From Methanobacteriota archaeon (lineage in GTDB: Archaea; Thermoplasmatota; Poseidoniia; Poseidoniales; Thalassarchaeaceae): a DNA stretch of 57,760 nt. Shown here piece after piece: positions 1-8,969 of the stretch. The first letter of the stretch is position 1. The number at the start of each line of letters is the position of its first letter. The stretch lies in NCBI GenBank assembly GCA_011523055.1, contig WTHQ01000023.1, positions 10,915-68,674 of the forward strand, given 5' to 3'. The notes under the pieces are model-generated. The model saw nothing but the letters and a program-made list of their open reading frames with translations, was not told where the DNA came from and made no database searches. A program made the translations under genes and the position numbers.

Positions 1-418
1 TGCTGAGCCTCCCTCTTTCGAATTTTTGCTCCAGTTGGTCCATCTCTATGCGGATTCTGGAGGGTGATCGATTGCCTCTCATATCACCTTCCTTATTCGA
101 TTGTTTAGTTTCAGAGATTTCCTCTTGAACTGCCTTCAGCGCTATCCGTTTTTCCTTGAGAGTCTTGGAATGCTCAGCGCGTAGGTTTTTGAGATCCTTT
201 ACTTTTTGATTCGCAGCATCGCGGATGGATTTCTTTATTTGGACCTCAGAGATTAGTTCCTGTACCTGGAGATTAAATCCATTCCTTTCCCCGGAGCGCT
301 GTTTTACCTTGTCATTCCATTCGTCCCTCATTTCTTTGTAGCTAGACGCCTCTAGCTCGATGACCTTTTGCTTATCCTCGAAGAGCTTTGTGAGGGTCGT
401 CGAGTCTAGGCCGCTCAT
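1..418 (-). CDS. Coiled-coil protein, COG1340-like (3' part cut off by window edge)
   Basis: The frame is open from an ATG at 418 down to base 1, so only the first 139 residues are visible and the C-terminus lies outside. The sequence is almost entirely charged heptad-like helix, rich in Lys, Glu, Arg and Gln, with no membrane segment. A KKSIRDAANQK stretch near residue 70 resembles QKSIRDTAKQH in the coiled-coil protein encoded at 6223-7212. The end of the visible part, IRIEMDQLEQKFERGRLS, resembles the 'I..LE...T..LS' signature I associate with archaeal COG1340 coiled-coil proteins. It lies 54 nt downstream of the next leftward gene and probably belongs to the same operon of three. No biochemical function is established that I can name; a structural or scaffold role is inference. 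Confidence 0.8.
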   Translation of the reverse strand, partial: MSGLDSTTLTKLFEDKQKVIELEASSYKEMRDEWNDKVKQRSGERNGFNLQVQELISEVQIKKSIRDAANQKVKDLKNLRAEHSKTLKEKRIALKAVQEEISETKQSNKEGDMRGNRSPSRIRIEMDQLEQKFERGRLS

Positions 419-471
419 TAGTTATCATGCAGCCCTACAATATTGAACATATAATTGCCACGTTCGTAATA

Positions 472-1347
472 CTACTTATCTGGTCGCTGCCTTGTCTTTC
501 TAGGGCCGCCCCTAGCAGGGGAAATCCTCCTTGATTTCTGTTTGTTCTGGATATTGCTGGATGGTCTGTTCACAGGCTCCGACGGCATTTTAGCTAAGTC
601 ATCGAGAATACTCCCTCCTTCAAGTAACAAGGCAATGTCTCCAGCAGCGATGTTTGAGCCACTCAGAACCCTGCTTTTGGCATCCTTGATCCTATTTTGA
701 CTCTTCAAATCCTTCTTCCTATTGACCATCTTCTTGATATCTGAGGATATGCTTTCAATCTCTTTGTCTAATTTCTCAATTCTCTTAGAAATCTTCCTTA
801 TTTCCTTCATATTGGATTTAATCTTTAAACCGCTTTCACCCTCTAGATCCTCCTTGGGGTGCTCTTTCTCCAATTCGTCCATTGTTTGTTTCATAAGTCC
901 GATGTGCTCAACATAACTAGAATGTGCAAGCTCCCCCTTTCTCTTTACCTCAATAGCAGCTATCAATTCAAAATACCTGCTGAATTCTCGTATTTCTCTC
1001 GATAATGTGGGCATTGCAGTTAGGTCGTTGTCTACTCCTTGAAGTTTCGTCAAGCTTTTCGAGGCCCACTCCTCAAGAACAGATACAGGTGGCGGGATTG
1101 CTAAGTTTATGTCATCCCTCTCCTTCCTCTTCGCATTAGCAATTTCCTTATTTTCATTGAAAAGAGAGAGATATTTTTTCCTGGATAGCGATCTACCCTT
1201 CGATTCAGAAGTTGTCGCTCGCAAACCTCTGACAGTCTCTACGAGCAACCCTCTCTCGGCTCTCAATGATCCTTTCTTGCTCTTTAGTTCGGATATATGC
1301 TTCTCAATATCCTCTGGTGAGGGTATTTGATCTGGCCCCTCACTCAC
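472..1347 (-). CDS. Coiled-coil protein with basic C-terminal tail (COG1340-like paralogue)
   Basis: A long helical, highly charged protein of about 291 residues. The frame extends upstream to an ATG at 1392, but that region overlaps the 3' end of the upstream gene. I prefer the GTG at 1347, which overlaps the upstream TGA (1342-1340) and has a GGGGGG stretch about 9 nt before it. Near the C-terminus the motif IALLLEGGSI is followed by a low-complexity tail rich in Arg, Lys and Pro. The protein at 6223-7212 ends in the same way (LANLLISSGSI, then a basic tail), which marks the two as paralogues. No catalytic motif or membrane segment is visible. The basic tail could bind nucleic acid or ribosomes, but that is inference. 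It is the middle gene of a leftward coiled-coil trio. Confidence 0.8.
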   Translation of the reverse strand: MSEGPDQIPSPEDIEKHISELKSKKGSLRAERGLLVETVRGLRATTSESKGRSLSRKKYLSLFNENKEIANAKRKERDDINLAIPPPVSVLEEWASKSLTKLQGVDNDLTAMPTLSREIREFSRYFELIAAIEVKRKGELAHSSYVEHIGLMKQTMDELEKEHPKEDLEGESGLKIKSNMKEIRKISKRIEKLDKEIESISSDIKKMVNRKKDLKSQNRIKDAKSRVLSGSNIAAGDIALLLEGGSILDDLAKMPSEPVNRPSSNIQNKQKSRRISPARGGPRKTRQRPDK

Positions 1348-2158
1348 TCTCGCTTCCCCCCACAACTCGACTCTTCTTAGTATTCTTTGCAAATGATGCC
1401 CTTTTTCCCGATCTTACCGAAATTGCATTCCTCATCAGGTCAAACCCAGCTCCTTTTTCGAAACCTGAAGTCACTACATTCTTCCAATAAGCCACAGAGG
1501 CCTCGGATTGTGAGTCTAGTTCCTTTGCTCTGTCCAACTGTTTACGCAGTTCAATGTGTTCACGTTCAAGCTCCTGCCTAGTCGAGTGCAATGGCTGCCC
1601 CTTTTCAACCAGATCAATCATTTTGGCATGATACTTATCGGCCTCTCTAAATAGCCTGGTCATCTCTTTCCTCTTTGAAACGTATTCTACCACCAGTGGG
1701 TTAGAGTCCCTTCGATTTTTTAGCCATTTTTCATTATCTTTCAATAGATTGGACCTTATAGAAATCAATTTTTTCTCTGCTTTGTGATCAAGTGCTTGAG
1801 TTTCGATTTTGTTCTCCAAATCGAGTAATTTCTCCTCCAATTTTTCCTTGGCCCAGTTTGGGTCGAGTATGATCATACCGCCAGATTCTTCGATCTGCAG
1901 TCGTAAGGATTTGACATCTTTCAACAATATGCCGGCCTTTTTTTGAAGTGCGTCTCTTTTGCTTTTACTCTCCGATACCACCATGTTAGATTTGTCGTGT
2001 CTTTCAACACTCCTCCTCAGTTTAGGTAATATTGCCTCCTCTTCAGCCTCTAGGTTTCTGATAATCCCGGGTAATGCCTCCCGTAGCATAATTCTCCTTG
2101 ACAATAATGTTTCAGCCAATTCCATTGGCTGTGGGTCAGATCCTTCGGTGGTTGTCAC
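1340..2158 (-). CDS. Coiled-coil protein (COG1340-like paralogue)
   Basis: A 272-residue protein made of heptad-like charged helices, first gene of the leftward coiled-coil operon. Residues around 110-130 read LEEKLLDLENKIETQALDHK, a good match to the 'I..LE..I.T..L....E..LI' pattern of COG1340 proteins. Further on, ADKYHAKMIDL resembles GDRYHAIFVSS of the protein at 6223-7212, supporting common ancestry. The C-terminus is basic (SVRSGKRASFAKNTKKSR). The stop codon overlaps the start of the next gene, which suggests translational coupling. The 74-nt gap to the divergent gene at 2233 must hold both promoters. The function is unknown; oligomeric structural proteins are the general expectation for such sequences. 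Confidence 0.82.
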   Translation of the reverse strand: MTTTEGSDPQPMELAETLLSRRIMLREALPGIIRNLEAEEEAILPKLRRSVERHDKSNMVVSESKSKRDALQKKAGILLKDVKSLRLQIEESGGMIILDPNWAKEKLEEKLLDLENKIETQALDHKAEKKLISIRSNLLKDNEKWLKNRRDSNPLVVEYVSKRKEMTRLFREADKYHAKMIDLVEKGQPLHSTRQELEREHIELRKQLDRAKELDSQSEASVAYWKNVVTSGFEKGAGFDLMRNAISVRSGKRASFAKNTKKSRVVGGSESE

Positions 2159-2232
2159 GACTGGTGGTCAAACACGCCCTGCTTAAACCACTCGTTGTTC
2201 CCTTAGTTATCCGTTGAATTGAAACCTGTTGG

Positions 2233-4035
2233 GTGTTAGTGTTGAGTGTGGTTAGATATCGGCCGGCCTTGGCAATAGCCATTGCGCTGCTCATTTCCCC
2301 TGGCACGGGAGTGATGGGTCAATCCAGCCAGTCCCCAATAGTTCAATGGGATTTAGAAACCAGAAATGGACTATCAGGAGAAATCTCCCCGAATTCCTCG
2401 ATAGTGGTAGTCGGAGATCTAGTTAGTGTCAGTTTTAGTGTGAATCAAGATGATGTAGGTAATGATGAGAATTGGGAACTATGGGTAAAAAATAATGGAA
2501 TTTGGACATTACTCAGCAGTGGATCCATCAGTGATGACGAATCTTTAATTGTGGATGATATAACCATTCATGTTAATGAGACAGGCTTACATGAAATTCA
2601 CCTAAGATTGTTTCCGAGTAGTCGAACAGAAACTATCAATTTTCATTCGGACCAAAACCCACTCGATCTAGTTCCCGCTGGAAAGGGCGGGGTTGCAGTT
2701 CAAGGTGAGCCTGTTCACGTGGGGGATTACATCACGTTGTCCGCCTTGGTTCATAATAGAGGGGATAGGACGGTTGAACCACACATGGAGTTATCCTCAG
2801 GTAGTCAACAAGGGTTAGGACCAGCAGTGTCGATTAAACCTGGATCCTCAAAGGAGCTAGAAGCGAGCTTGAGGCTGGCAGAGGCAGGACCCACTACCAT
2901 TCATTGGTCAATTTCAGGCGCCGGGATCGGAGTGTCTCATTCCCTCTCTGGCTCCATTGAAGTTTCTGTGTCCCCAATTCAGTCAATCGAAATATCCTCA
3001 GTTTTCCACAACAGAATAACTAATTCTCTTGAGATAGCAGTATTGCTTTCCGAGGGAAGGAGTCGCATAGTATCAATTTCCTCGACATCTACTACCTCTG
3101 ATTCGAACACACAGACCTCAGAAATTATCGCCAACATTATTCCTGGCTTGCAATCCATCAGCTTCCCTGTTCCCAGCGATATATCTGGGCAAGTGGAGGT
3201 CTATGCGGAACCAATAGGCTGGTTTGGAGATAGGGCTGTGGAACAGCTTGTCCTGGTGCCCCTGGCCTCTGATGCCACCTTGCTCTCCGAATTGTCCCCT
3301 TGGGATGATGGCCAATCAGCACAAGAAGTCTCTTTCTCGATCAGAAATTCTGGCACTTCTACGCTGGGCGAAGGTGAACTAGAGGCGATATGGGTTATTG
3401 ACGGCAGAGTGATCTCGTCCTATGAAATCCCCTCAATTGAACCATCTGAAACTTACCAGTCCACAGTTTCTTTTTCCAAGGAAGGCATAAGCTCCTCAGG
3501 CGAAATCAGACTCACATACAAAACGGGCTCAGATGCCTATTCTACCACTTTTCAATACGTACCTAAAATCCAAGGCAATGGTGGGCTGGACCTTCCATTC
3601 CAACCACAGGCCGCAGGCATAGGAGGCATCTTAGGACTCGTGATTGTGTTGCTGTCTGTTTTGATCATGAGGACGCTGGAAACAGAAGTCTCCAAGACAG
3701 GGGGATCAAAGGGCGAAATCAAGAAGGCCAAAGAAGATAGTATTGACTGCTATAACTGCGGTTTGATGTTGAGAATCGACAATTCAAGGGACGTTGTGAG
3801 GTGCCCAGCGTGCTCGACTATCAATACACTACAAGTGAAAATGAATATCGATGAGAAACAAGTTGAAACCCACGCTCCCCCCAGTCCTCCAGACTCGGCT
3901 ATTGCAACGTCATCCACCGATCTAATTTCATGCCCAAACTGTGATCAAGCACTCAAGGTTCCGATTGACCGAAGACCGGTCATGGCCAGGTGCCCTGCAT
4001 GCAAGTGCACTTTCAAGGCAACAAAAGGAGAATGA
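2233..4035 (+). CDS. Secreted/membrane protein with large ectodomain and two cytoplasmic zinc ribbons
   Basis: A 600-residue protein starting at GTG 2233 (a TTG at 2242 is an alternative). A signal peptide covers roughly residues 5-30 and ends in VMGQS. The ectodomain (about 30-455) looks all-beta, rich in Ser, Ile and Val with repeated CARDB- or Ig-like phrases such as SVSFSVNQ and SFSIRNSG. One membrane helix spans about 461-482. The cytoplasmic tail carries two four-Cys zinc ribbons, with Cys at 506/509/524/527 and 567/570/587/590, joined by a Pro/Ser linker. The topology suggests an outside sensor or adhesin coupled to an inside zinc-ribbon pair. The stop overlaps the start region of a DtxR-like regulator, implying co-expression. 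No named family recognised for the whole protein. Confidence 0.85.
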   Translation: MLVLSVVRYRPALAIAIALLISPGTGVMGQSSQSPIVQWDLETRNGLSGEISPNSSIVVVGDLVSVSFSVNQDDVGNDENWELWVKNNGIWTLLSSGSISDDESLIVDDITIHVNETGLHEIHLRLFPSSRTETINFHSDQNPLDLVPAGKGGVAVQGEPVHVGDYITLSALVHNRGDRTVEPHMELSSGSQQGLGPAVSIKPGSSKELEASLRLAEAGPTTIHWSISGAGIGVSHSLSGSIEVSVSPIQSIEISSVFHNRITNSLEIAVLLSEGRSRIVSISSTSTTSDSNTQTSEIIANIIPGLQSISFPVPSDISGQVEVYAEPIGWFGDRAVEQLVLVPLASDATLLSELSPWDDGQSAQEVSFSIRNSGTSTLGEGELEAIWVIDGRVISSYEIPSIEPSETYQSTVSFSKEGISSSGEIRLTYKTGSDAYSTTFQYVPKIQGNGGLDLPFQPQAAGIGGILGLVIVLLSVLIMRTLETEVSKTGGSKGEIKKAKEDSIDCYNCGLMLRIDNSRDVVRCPACSTINTLQVKMNIDEKQVETHAPPSPPDSAIATSSTDLISCPNCDQALKVPIDRRPVMARCPACKCTFKATKGE

Positions 4036-4037
4036 AT

Positions 4038-4685
4038 ATGGAAACAGATCTCTCCAGAGGAGAAGAGCAGTATCTGAAGAGGACACTGGAAGCTTTTGAA
4101 GACAACCCCTCAGAGATTGTCAAAACTAGCGAGCTTGCATCCAGGCTGAATGTCAGTCCAGCATCTGTCACCGAGATGATAAAGAAACTTGCATCTCGCA
4201 ATCTCGTCACACACATACCTTACAAGGGCTCGAGACTAACCTCAGAGGGATTCATCCTAGCAAATATAGTGAAACGACGACAACTCCTCATCGAGATTTT
4301 GCTCTCTGATGTAGCAGGAATGAAGTCAAATGTCGCCCAACTAGCTGCAGATTTTGAGCACCACTTGGACAAGGAATCGGAGTACGAACTCGACAAGGCA
4401 CTAGGATTCCCATCTGAGACACTAGACGGAAGGAAGATTTCGGAAATAGAGAGGCCCAAAACGGAGCTACCTATGTCTATGACGGTTAATGAGTTGAGGT
4501 CTGGAGAGACAGGCCTTGTGTATGCAATGAGGTTAAGGGGCACCACTCTGGAGGCCCTTGCGAACCTTAGACTCCAGATTGGTCAATCTATAGTTAGGAC
4601 GGATACCGGAATAAACATAGGTGGGGAAGACTTCGCACTGGACGCTTGTCACATGGAGTCTATATTTGTCCGAAGGGGTGAGTAG
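4038..4685 (+). CDS. DtxR/MntR-family transcriptional regulator with FeoA-like C-terminal domain
   Basis: A winged helix-turn-helix occupies about residues 8-70 (TSELASRLNVSPASVTEMIKKL), followed by a dimerisation domain with the EHHLDKESEYELDKALG segment and a C-terminal SH3/FeoA-like domain (about 145-212). I chose ATG 4038 because GGAG at 4027-4030 sits 7 nt upstream; an ATG at 4032 overlapping the previous stop is the alternative. DtxR proteins repress metal-uptake genes when loaded with Fe or Mn. By eye only Glu107 and His108 of the usual primary metal site are kept: the positions matching DtxR Met10, Cys102 and His79 appear to be Gln, Ala and Arg. Metal responsiveness is therefore uncertain. 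The gene sits in a tight three-gene operon between two membrane-protein genes. Confidence 0.88.
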   Translation: METDLSRGEEQYLKRTLEAFEDNPSEIVKTSELASRLNVSPASVTEMIKKLASRNLVTHIPYKGSRLTSEGFILANIVKRRQLLIEILLSDVAGMKSNVAQLAADFEHHLDKESEYELDKALGFPSETLDGRKISEIERPKTELPMSMTVNELRSGETGLVYAMRLRGTTLEALANLRLQIGQSIVRTDTGINIGGEDFALDACHMESIFVRRGE

Positions 4686-4687
4686 TG

Positions 4688-6184
4688 ATGGCCGAGAAGT
4701 CTACAAATCCCGATAATGCTACAAACTTAGATGGGGATTTGGTAGCTGAAGATCCACTCACCGGCGTTGGAAGGGAGAATGGATTGCACCAAATCATCCT
4801 GAGGCTGGAGAGGCTCTTCATTACCGATGGTTTGAGGATGGACTTCATTACACCCGCAGTACTTCTCCTGGTCCTTGGGTCGTCGGTGGCCTATGCAGAG
4901 ACCTCGCCATCTTGGTGGGTTGATGACCTTCAAACTCAAACTGGCACCAGCCTCTCAGCATTCCTTCTATTTTTGTCTGTCTTTATCATACTGGCCAATA
5001 TCTTCCTTATTCTCATCCTCTTCTTGAGCTTGAGATTGAACATCTCGATGTTTGATGATCATGAGAGAGCTATGTCCCAAATGGGAATGGTGATGAGTAA
5101 CTCCCATGGATACGCAGAGGTAAGAAGAATTTTTGATGTCACAAGGAGGATTCTGACCGGCCGTTTGGTCGTTCTAATCGTTAGTTTGGGCCTAGTCACT
5201 CTCTCATTGAACCCCTTATTGGAGGACTTTCAGGCTGTTTTTTCTGTAATCGCCTTGTCTACCATACTGGCATCACTGGGACTACAGATAACTGCCCCAC
5301 TTGTATCTTTCAATACATTGGAGCCTTGGGGGCTACTAGAGACATACCAACCAGCTGTGCACAAAACCTTGCTGTCTGACCCATTCCTAGATCTGGTAAG
5401 GGCTCATGCTGACCCCCTCCTGCATTCAAGGATGTCCTTACACCTCAAAGAAATATCAATTAGACTCCCTGAATTAGATATGGTTACGTTTCAAGAGAGA
5501 CTGCTCCATTTGCTACATCTGAGAGCTCAAACTGCCATAGATGACAAAGAAATGAGGACAAGGTTGACAGAATACATTGATGATGACACGATCAATGAGC
5601 TATTCGGACACAATGAATTGGGTGAGACGACTTGGGTTAGGTTACTATCTCATTCCGCAGGCTCCTGCGCCCCCTTCTTCAGGCTTTATGACCGTATGAG
5701 ACGCCAACAGGTTGGGAACACTTTCGATAATGTGTGGTTTGACGTGGACATTGAAAATCTTGCACGAGGGAGGACTAACATGATGGCCCTCATATTGAAC
5801 AACGGAAGCGAGCCATTAGATCTGATACTACGTGTTCAGACACCTGATTTCAGACCTAAGGAGGGTATATATCGACTTACTGTACCACCCTCCGAACTTT
5901 CCCACGAGGATGGTGTCGACCGTCAGATAGAGGCTTTGGAACAGAGTACTATAGTTTGGCAGTCCCTAATCCCCAGCGTTTTCGGCGAAGCCACCGTGTC
6001 CATCAGGTTGGAGAACCCCAATGGCAGCCTCGTGAATGGCCGAGTCCTAAATGTGCAATCTAGAGCAGATTTGACCACGAGATTCAGGCGAGGCGTAGGA
6101 TCATTGATGATCGTAACGGCTATTCTCACCGCAATGATTCCTGCGATTTCAGCTATCAATGCAATCTTGTCTGTGATTTCATGA
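4688..6184 (+). CDS. Multi-pass membrane protein, unknown function
   Basis: About 498 residues from ATG 4688, with GGGGTG 7 nt upstream; a GTG at 4685 overlapping the previous TAG is possible. Hydrophobic segments lie at about 55-75, 95-122, 158-178 and 182-205, and a last one at the C-terminus (about 475-497). Between them is a large soluble part with a mixed alpha and then beta-rich composition (about 215-465). The helical part includes LLHLLHLRAQ and a stretch resembling helical-repeat proteins. I recognise no catalytic motif. It follows the DtxR-like gene with no gap, so it is probably co-transcribed with it and the zinc-ribbon protein. A role in the same signalling or metal-linked module is inference. 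Confidence 0.8.
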   Translation: MAEKSTNPDNATNLDGDLVAEDPLTGVGRENGLHQIILRLERLFITDGLRMDFITPAVLLLVLGSSVAYAETSPSWWVDDLQTQTGTSLSAFLLFLSVFIILANIFLILILFLSLRLNISMFDDHERAMSQMGMVMSNSHGYAEVRRIFDVTRRILTGRLVVLIVSLGLVTLSLNPLLEDFQAVFSVIALSTILASLGLQITAPLVSFNTLEPWGLLETYQPAVHKTLLSDPFLDLVRAHADPLLHSRMSLHLKEISIRLPELDMVTFQERLLHLLHLRAQTAIDDKEMRTRLTEYIDDDTINELFGHNELGETTWVRLLSHSAGSCAPFFRLYDRMRRQQVGNTFDNVWFDVDIENLARGRTNMMALILNNGSEPLDLILRVQTPDFRPKEGIYRLTVPPSELSHEDGVDRQIEALEQSTIVWQSLIPSVFGEATVSIRLENPNGSLVNGRVLNVQSRADLTTRFRRGVGSLMIVTAILTAMIPAISAINAILSVIS

Positions 6185-6222
6185 TCCAATCCTTTCAATA
6201 GTAAACTGCTCTTCGACCGTCT

Positions 6223-7212
6223 GTGGATCATTCGGATGCCCCACCTGAGAATGACGATCTGAGGACCAGGCTTCACGCCATGGAGACCAAAGCCAAACGG
6301 TTGAGAAACCAGAGGAACTCATACAGCGATGATGCTAGGTCCTCTGCTGAAAAACGCGATACAATTCAATCTCAGGGCAGAGAAGTCAAAGACCAGATTA
6401 ACGAAAGGATGGAAGAGCAAAAATCTATCAGGGATACGGCAAAACAACATCGAGACAGACGAGATGAGATTCAGACAAGGATAAGGGAGTTAATTGGTAA
6501 GAGCAAAGGCAAAAGGGACGATGACCGAAACTCTCGGTCAGCAGTCGTAGAGCTAGCAGAGGTAGAATCTGGGATTTCAAATATCGAAGACAGAATCATG
6601 ACCGATGGTAGATTGAGTTTAGACAAAGAAAACAAACTGCTGAAACAACTCAAATCACTGAAGTCAAGACGGAATCAATTGATGCCTGAGGTCGAGGAAA
6701 ATTCAATCATCAAGTTGGACCTCAAAGATCTTGATGGGAGCATTCTGACACTTAAGGCAGAAGCCGACTCCGAGCATAATTTGATGCTGGAGGCCCATAA
6801 GAAGGCGGACGAGATCTGGGAAGAAATTAAGCCGCTCTTCGAAGAGAGAGATTTCCTGAGATCTGAAGGCGACAGATATCATGCGATTTTCGTATCCAGT
6901 AGGAGAGCTGCAGACGAGGTTCACGCCACATTAGTTGATTTGTACTCCGAGGTGGACGAAATAAAGAATGTACTTAAAGAACAAGAGCAGGATCAAAAGA
7001 AATCAATCGAAGAATACAACAGAGAAGCTAAGCGATCTCTGAATACTCCCTCCGAGTCAGAGGAAATGGCGAACGATCTCGCGAACTTGCTCATTTCATC
7101 GGGGTCCATCACGTTGGGGGGGACAGGCGTCAGTGAAGGAAGAGCGAAGAAAGGGAGCCTGTCTGACAAAAGAGCAGGGAGACGAAAAATTAAGGCGAGG
7201 CGTGGAAGGTAG
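6223..7212 (+). CDS. Coiled-coil protein, COG1340-like, with basic tail
   Basis: A 329-residue charged helical protein from GTG 6223 (an ATG at 6280-6282 would shorten it by about 19 residues). It contains ISNIEDRIMTDGRLSLDKEN, the clearest copy in this window of the COG1340 'LE..I.T..LS..KE' signature. The C-terminus has LANLLISSGSI followed by an Arg/Lys/Gly-rich tail ending KIKARRGR. It is the fourth coiled-coil paralogue of the region, on the opposite strand from the other three and separated from them by the zinc-ribbon/DtxR/membrane module. It follows the membrane-protein gene by 38 nt and could be in that operon. It ends convergently 1 nt from pdxS. The function is unknown. Confidence 0.85.
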   Translation: MDHSDAPPENDDLRTRLHAMETKAKRLRNQRNSYSDDARSSAEKRDTIQSQGREVKDQINERMEEQKSIRDTAKQHRDRRDEIQTRIRELIGKSKGKRDDDRNSRSAVVELAEVESGISNIEDRIMTDGRLSLDKENKLLKQLKSLKSRRNQLMPEVEENSIIKLDLKDLDGSILTLKAEADSEHNLMLEAHKKADEIWEEIKPLFEERDFLRSEGDRYHAIFVSSRRAADEVHATLVDLYSEVDEIKNVLKEQEQDQKKSIEEYNREAKRSLNTPSESEEMANDLANLLISSGSITLGGTGVSEGRAKKGSLSDKRAGRRKIKARRGR

Positions 7213-8534: not shown

Positions 8535-8969
8535 TCATGACCCCATACTAGAGAGATATTCTTCTGCAACTTGCAGGGGGTCCTGTCCTGGATAGGATTC
8601 AACCTTCATTCTGATTTTAACCGGGTGCCTACCCCTAATCCCCTTCCCCAACACAACTCTTCCCTTCACAAATTCCTGAAGGTCTAACCTAAAGTGTAGG
8701 GTTTTATTATCATCCATCATCTTTTCCAAGCCTACTTCCAGGAGTTCAGTCAACATTGTTTTAGGAAGATTTCCAGTTAATTGCCTTACATCCCTTTTCC
8801 TTGTAGCCATGGCCTCGATTGTGAATTGTGTTGCACCGTGGTATGTTTTGCTACTTGAGACACTGAGCTCCGCATCATCATGTAGCAATTTTACCATAGC
8901 CTCGCAGATCAGGTCGACATCATCTACCGCAGAGCAAATCACTTTGATGTGGATTGACAAAATAGACAT
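8535..8969 (-). CDS. Small RNA-binding-type archaeal protein (COG1325/UPF0201-like)
   Basis: A 144-residue protein. The C-terminal pattern, with LHFRLDLQEFVKGRVVLG followed by a beta strand VKIRMKVESYP, resembles the 'LRLDKQ.A..G' segment of archaeal COG1325 or UPF0201 proteins. Those are predicted RNA-binding proteins linked to the exosome and translation clusters. I cannot separate the two families by eye. It reads leftward, divergent from eS1. A TATA-like box about 26 nt before its ATG suggests a leaderless transcript. Residues 1-60 form an alternating beta/alpha pattern typical of these small domains. Confidence 0.7.
   Translation of the reverse strand: MSILSIHIKVICSAVDDVDLICEAMVKLLHDDAELSVSSSKTYHGATQFTIEAMATRKRDVRQLTGNLPKTMLTELLEVGLEKMMDDNKTLHFRLDLQEFVKGRVVLGKGIRGRHPVKIRMKVESYPGQDPLQVAEEYLSSMGS

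Follow-up and report, generated by a model that had tools for sequence, protein, structure and literature searches.

The left end of the window—the 57,760-nucleotide stretch of archaeal contig WTHQ01000023.1 analysed here—carries a seven-gene module that is conserved in both families of the order Poseidoniales, and in one branch of the sister family the coiled-coil protein CC2 of this module is fused at its N-terminus to a predicted terminal uridylyltransferase (TUT) of eukaryotic type. Taking the evidence jointly, we read the module as a membrane-associated, RNA-handling coiled-coil scaffold to which 3'-uridylation was added in the Poseidoniaceae, and we assign this reading a probability of about 0.5. 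Proteins of the COG1340/DUF7121 family, to which the coiled coils are related, are widespread in archaea and without known function, and the seven-gene module with its fused RNA-end enzyme provides a first concrete, testable hypothesis for them. If the enzyme does uridylate RNA, then TUT-driven tailing, regarded as eukaryotic, is at work in marine archaea that are uncultured and abundant worldwide—the Poseidoniaceae being among the most abundant archaea of the surface ocean—and would have arisen there through a single event, a transfer with fusion, whose place on a tree can be given.

A seven-gene module conserved across the Poseidoniales

Two divergent gene sets occupy positions 2-7212 of the window, with CC3-CC2-CC1 running leftward and MP1-DtxR-MP2-CC4 rightward, as follows:

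2..418, strand -: CC1, N-terminal 139 aa of a DUF7121/COG1340 coiled coil (orthologues match DUF7121)
G000:C25:10275-10802, outside the window, beyond a 100-N gap: remainder of CC1, to ~300 aa
472..1347, strand -: CC2, coiled coil with basic C-terminal tail, here without a nucleotidyltransferase domain
1340..2158, strand -: CC3, coiled coil, most orthologues of which end in -EEE; 8-nt overlap with the CC2 start
2159..2232, no strand: divergent intergenic region of 74 bp, from the gene coordinates
2233..4035, strand +: MP1, signal/TM start, CARDB-type beta domains, one TM and two zinc ribbons (Pfam, CxxC pairs)
4032..4685, strand +: DtxR/MntR-family regulator with a weak FeoA-like C-terminal domain (Pfam)
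4685..6184, strand +: MP2, predicted membrane-spanning N-terminal helices and an Ig-like beta domain (AF2 model)
6223..7212, strand +: CC4, DUF7121/COG1340 coiled coil with basic tail (Pfam DUF7121, 4e-8)

All seven genes lie in the places and orientations given by the original prediction, which was made from the sequence alone, and what had to be revised concerns gene ends. The leftmost coiled-coil gene is present but incomplete, as the window start truncates CC1 after a 100-N scaffold gap (L002 10815-10914, in G000:C25) that lies directly left of position 1 and splits the gene. Because an identical 42 bp, encoding the 14 residues MDQLEQKFERGRLS, flank this gap on each side, the gap is spurious—an assembly artefact between contigs that in fact overlap—and CC1 is one gene of ~300 aa. 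The DtxR-like gene was also correctly recognised, with its start at ATG 4032 (an ATGA overlap with the MP1 stop) rather than at GTG 3990. CC2, which is ~290-306 aa long in the window, probably starts at GTG 1347, giving the 8-nt overlap with CC3, in a reading frame that stays open to 1392. The promoters of both operons presumably lie within 2159..2232. Judging by their sequences, we take the genes upstream of CC1 to be rpoB, rpoA1, rpoA2 and rpl30e, and those downstream of CC4 to be pdxS, a ferredoxin gene and rps3ae.

The module is ancestral and order-wide in the Poseidoniales. Under the scheme of PMC6461757 the window's family would correspond to Ca. Thalassarchaeaceae, its sister family being Ca. 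Poseidoniaceae; among loci spanning CC1 to CC4, with a few genomes fetched twice, the exact order CC1< CC2< CC3< MP1> DtxR> MP2> CC4> occurs in 86 of 88, distributed over both families (17/18 loci in Thalassarchaeaceae, 69/70 in Poseidoniaceae), so that the expectation of conserved gene order in related genomes was well founded. Across 40 loci from ~21 genera of the two families, all seven gene families are represented save for contig-edge or single losses, and CC4 was found in 139 of the 146 genomes of the order.

Single or double COG1340/DUF7121 genes occur across the phylum, and the CC4 profile matched 155 of 214 genomes of the phylum, those of the order among them, whereas the Poseidoniales hold two family members together with the diverged paralogues CC2 and CC3 in a seven-gene module of fixed order. 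MP1, DtxR or MP2 neighbours were not seen elsewhere in the phylum: neither DtxR nor MP2 stood beside a CC4-type gene in any of 18 outgroup loci, which yielded only weak matches to the beta domains of MP1. A search of class-level relatives did not find CC2, and no conserved context of DUF7121 genes was obvious in five loci from outside the order. The arrangement had been put forward as undescribed, and we likewise found no account of it in the open-access literature searched.

Relationships among the four coiled-coil proteins

We compared the four coiled-coil families profile against profile with hhalign, using ~40 orthologues per family and, as composition-keeping controls, alignments reversed end to end. 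Five of the six pairs were significant—CC1-CC4 (E=3e-18, 99%), CC3-CC4 (8e-11), CC1-CC3 (1e-10), CC2-CC4 (4e-7) and CC1-CC2 (4e-6)—and the direct comparison of CC2 with CC3 gave no significant match. Reversed-alignment controls between families returned E values of ~0.1-0.5, which rules out chance coiled-coil similarity as the cause of the paralogy. Against the Pfam model DUF7121 (PF23435), which we take to correspond to COG1340, CC4 scored 33.3 bits (4e-8), above the gathering score of 29, and CC1 orthologues from relatives scored 51-66 bits (1e-13 to 7e-18), also above the cut-off. CC3 gave one weak match below it (8e-5, 22.5 bits) and CC2 gave none, so these two proteins join the coiled-coil family by profile-profile comparison only. 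The proposal that the four are COG1340/DUF7121-like paralogues is thus borne out by hhalign together with the Pfam matches.

The motifs on which that proposal had drawn are real: KSIRDAA in CC1, KSIRDTA in CC4, KYHA in CC3 and RYHA in CC4, as well as the GSI motif shared by two of the proteins (IALLLEGGSI in CC2, LANLLISSGSI in CC4). Basic tails had also been attributed to two coiled coils, and these are CC2 and CC4, where the last 40 residues carry a median net charge of +11 and +8, respectively; the C-terminus of CC1 is acidic. COG1340 has been listed among highly conserved archaeal groups whose function is unknown (PMC1322226), and we found no function for it in the open-access literature.

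Membrane proteins and regulator

MP1 is the zinc-ribbon membrane protein that had been predicted, with a match to Pfam CARDB (E=7e-8) and paired CxxC motifs kept in nearly all orthologues; it probably crosses the membrane once, at about residue 460, placing a tail with the two zinc ribbons in the cytosol. A role as surface sensor had been suggested for this part of the cluster; the CARDB repeats of MP1 would be the sole basis for it. MP2 proved to be the second membrane protein, as expected; its AF2 model (pLDDT 84) comprises N-terminal helices, a helical domain, an Ig-like beta domain (345-463) and a C-terminal helix. It has no family match, fold searches for its function returned a common Ig-like domain as the sole match, and it was not found outside the order. 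A second, weaker MP2 paralogue occurs elsewhere in most Poseidoniales genomes (e.g. G002:C1:108260-109246).

The regulator between them, correctly recognised as DtxR-like, is a true member of the DtxR family, matching both the N-terminal (PF01325, 9e-15) and the C-terminal (PF02742, 7e-11) Pfam domains; its score against the MntR-type NCBIfam model (3e-24) is below that model's cut-off. It shares the N- and C-terminal domains with DtxR/MntR metal-dependent regulators but differs from them in that the metal ligands appear partly lost, more so in the window copy: the family consensus keeps the metal motif ACrlEH (ligands C..EH) and has Arg at the ancillary His position, whereas the window copy reads AADFEH (A..EH) and lacks the Cys.

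A terminal nucleotidyltransferase fused to CC2 in the Poseidoniaceae

In most genera of the Poseidoniaceae, CC2 is ~700 aa long and begins with a terminal nucleotidyltransferase domain of the Cid1/TUT7/URT1 type (TUT domain), in which Pfam recognises an NTase palm (PF22600, 5e-30) and a PAP_assoc domain (PF03828, 3e-11), both above cut-off. PF22600 was detected in 50 of 146 genomes of the order, all of them Poseidoniaceae, with no match in the window genome (G000) or any other searched genome of its family; a search for a separate TUT gene in that family likewise found none. The TUT domain occupies the CC2 slot throughout 80 retrieved loci, including the closed chromosome CM001443.1 (L101), and the fusion also appears in apparent single-cell genome records (L158, L173, L180). 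An assembly or contamination artefact is ruled out by these ~80 same-slot loci, the closed chromosome, the apparent single-cell records and the vertical inheritance of the fusion. One contig filed under a Rhodobiaceae MAG (L170) carries the same Poseidoniaceae cluster as L172 and is probably mis-binned.

Profiles of the TUT domain matched structures of TUT4, TUT7, URT1, Cid1 and CutA at 1e-58 to 1e-83, and enzymes of the Trf4/MTPAP type much more weakly. In the AF2 model of the fusion protein (pLDDT 81) a long helical hairpin (residues 398-622) comes after the TUT fold, and Foldseek placed the model close to TUT7 (TMt 0.84, E 9e-22) and URT1 (0.90). Among 33 sequences, the catalytic aspartates are essentially invariant—D104 in 33, D106 in 32 with one unreadable residue, and D158 in 33—and a His equivalent to Cid1 H336 stands at position 338 in 31, with Arg in the other two. 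The use of UTP over ATP has been attributed to this type of His (PMC6240794). For closely related pairs, median omega is 0.053 in the enzyme part and 0.041 in the coil; the fused enzyme is under purifying selection. From these features we predict that the Poseidoniaceae fusion protein adds UMP to RNA 3' ends, with a probable preference for UTP.

The fused enzyme thus has in common with eukaryotic Cid1, TUT4-TUT7 and URT1 the palm and PAP_assoc domains, the three catalytic Asp, the IEDPF...H segment and the fold (TM 0.84-0.90). It differs from them in being archaeal, in the fusion of the predicted enzyme to an archaeal coiled coil and in bearing a basic tail in place of their zinc knuckles or other RNA-binding domains. 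The domain was probably transferred from eukaryotes, a direction read from the graded similarity, with URT1, TUT4/7 and Cid1 well above Trf4/MTPAP. We found no archaeal TUT in the open-access literature, nor any description there of a eukaryote-type TUT fused into a conserved archaeal module.

On a tree of MP2, CC4 and DtxR, the TUT domain requires two state changes, a single gain, by fusion, after genera g17 and g21 split off and a single loss in genus g13. The module is present without the enzyme in the window's family, in g17, g20 and g21 and in part of g13. In g17, the N-terminus of CC2 is a low-complexity KSQSKG repeat with no enzyme domain (L038:7236-8759 (-)). A genome scan for relatives of the TUT domain, resting on two peptide patterns, returned 107 relatives, and 79 of the best 80 are titled Poseidoniales or generic (eury)archaeota. 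Matches in other Thermoplasmatota were discarded as partial and weak, many of them falling in frames of the length of CCA-adding enzymes, and a viral, phage or plasmid source found no backing, searches of IMG/VR and of phage and plasmid collections, at the sensitivity used, having returned no relative.

Proposed function of the module

The predicted RNA-tailing enzyme in the fusion strongly hints at an RNA-handling role of the cluster; through the terminal nucleotidyltransferase of the sister family, the first functional clue to the module points to RNA. In the mechanism that we propose, CC1-CC4 would form a hetero-oligomeric coiled-coil scaffold, the basic tails of CC2 and CC4 would bind RNA or ribonucleoprotein, MP1 and MP2 would tie the complex to the membrane, and the DtxR-like protein would regulate the module, possibly placing it under metal control. 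In the one Poseidoniaceae branch with the putative uridylyltransferase at the CC2 N-terminus, the complex would probably add 3' (oligo)U tails to the RNAs that it holds, marking them for decay, and the window's genome would possess the scaffold without the enzyme. Since the window's family has the module but not the enzyme, any tailing must have been added to an older scaffold function and is not the core one. The module may have an RNA role in that family too, an argument that is indirect. The same retention of the whole module without the enzyme also counts against the RNA reading, as RNA may not be the core function either; further, the DUF7121 loci inspected elsewhere in the phylum gave no obvious sign of an RNA context, and DNA or acidic lipid would be equally possible ligands of the basic tails.

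As had been proposed from the sequence, a scaffold connected to the membrane stays plausible, whereas nothing points to a filament, and the suggested chromosome association found no support, the SMC coiled-coil matches being at a generic level. Those generic matches, the long helical hairpin of the model and the persistence of the module without the enzyme would nevertheless suit a purely structural role, as a membrane-attached cytoskeletal or chromosome-organising assembly with the nucleotidyltransferase an opportunistic passenger in one lineage. This we consider unlikely, given that the fused enzyme has been kept in the same gene over many speciations at an omega of ~0.05, and that the order-wide core lacks an ATPase, a GTPase or a partner that forms filaments. 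Ribosome-associated proteins commonly have long basic coiled coils and zinc ribbons, and in the window's family the cluster is flanked by the RNA polymerase/L30e operon on one side and the S3ae gene on the other, which would be in keeping with a translation-linked factor: at the membrane, DUF7121 coils would bind ribosomes or nascent chains, and a fused enzyme, whose known relatives act on RNA ends, would edit the 3' ends of tRNA, rRNA or mRNA there. However, the rpo-adjacent genes are not conserved on the CC1 side in the Poseidoniaceae and no protein has a ribosome-binding family match, and we regard such a role as improbable.

The tight linkage of DtxR, the paired zinc ribbons and the ACrlEH motif of the family consensus, along with the MntR-type score, albeit below cut-off, would instead be expected of a metal- or envelope-stress module in which DtxR controls an MP1/MP2 complex and the coils are PspA-like peripheral-membrane effectors unrelated to RNA. 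The loss of the metal-ligand Cys from the window regulator and the lack of a transporter in the core make this very unlikely, and the fusion to a nucleotidyltransferase would be left unexplained. Nor is it at all probable that the fused domain transfers nucleotides to a protein or small molecule rather than to RNA 3' ends: the DNA polymerase beta-like superfamily includes enzymes with non-RNA acceptors, but here the palm and PAP_assoc domains and the IEDPF...H base-recognition segment are both present, and the similarity to RNA 3'-uridylyltransferases extends over the full length.

Candidate RNA decay partners and other linked genes

An RNase II/R-family (RNB) exonuclease, scoring best against bacterial RNase R and then DIS3L2, is encoded in 38 of 48 Poseidoniaceae genomes; it was absent from all 49 genomes of the window's family:

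L181:4876-7263 and relatives, strand -: RNase R/VacB-type exonuclease, Poseidoniaceae only

Returning to the RNA-handling scaffold, we tentatively suggest, and with some doubt, that the Poseidoniaceae run an RNA 3'-uridylation pathway in which the captured TUT tails RNAs on the membrane-linked complex and the RNase R-type enzyme, whose confinement to this family hints at such a coupling, possibly degrades the tailed RNAs. If true, such a pathway would be the first case in archaea of RNA decay that depends on uridylation. It would resemble TUT4/7-DIS3L2 decay in that its TUT and its RNase II/R-family 3'-5' exonuclease share a restriction to the Poseidoniaceae, and would differ from it in that the exonuclease is nearest to bacterial RNase R. 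Within the Poseidoniaceae the exonuclease accompanies the TUT domain in 30 of 35 genomes as against 8 of 13 without it, an association that is not significant (Fisher p=0.11), so the parallel is suggestive only. A further difference is that no Lsm/Sm-like protein was detected in 50 Poseidoniales genomes, with positive controls in three other archaea, so that the classical U-tail reader is missing. RNase PH-type exosome genes are present in 97 of 97 genomes.

In the Poseidoniaceae, additional genes stand between CC2 and CC1:

L139:10136-11733 and L101:10150-11065, CC2-CC1 interval: GNAT acetyltransferase, ~110-aa protein and, in some genomes, a KaiC-type ATPase

We read the ~110-residue protein, which has no Pfam match, as Roadblock-like. 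In the window itself, a PF01877 gene at 8535-8969 (-) lies two genes from PdxS and 1.3 kb from the module; we take PF01877 to be a COG1325-type RNA-binding protein, predicted to be exosome-associated. A PF01877 gene also occurs near the module in many relatives.
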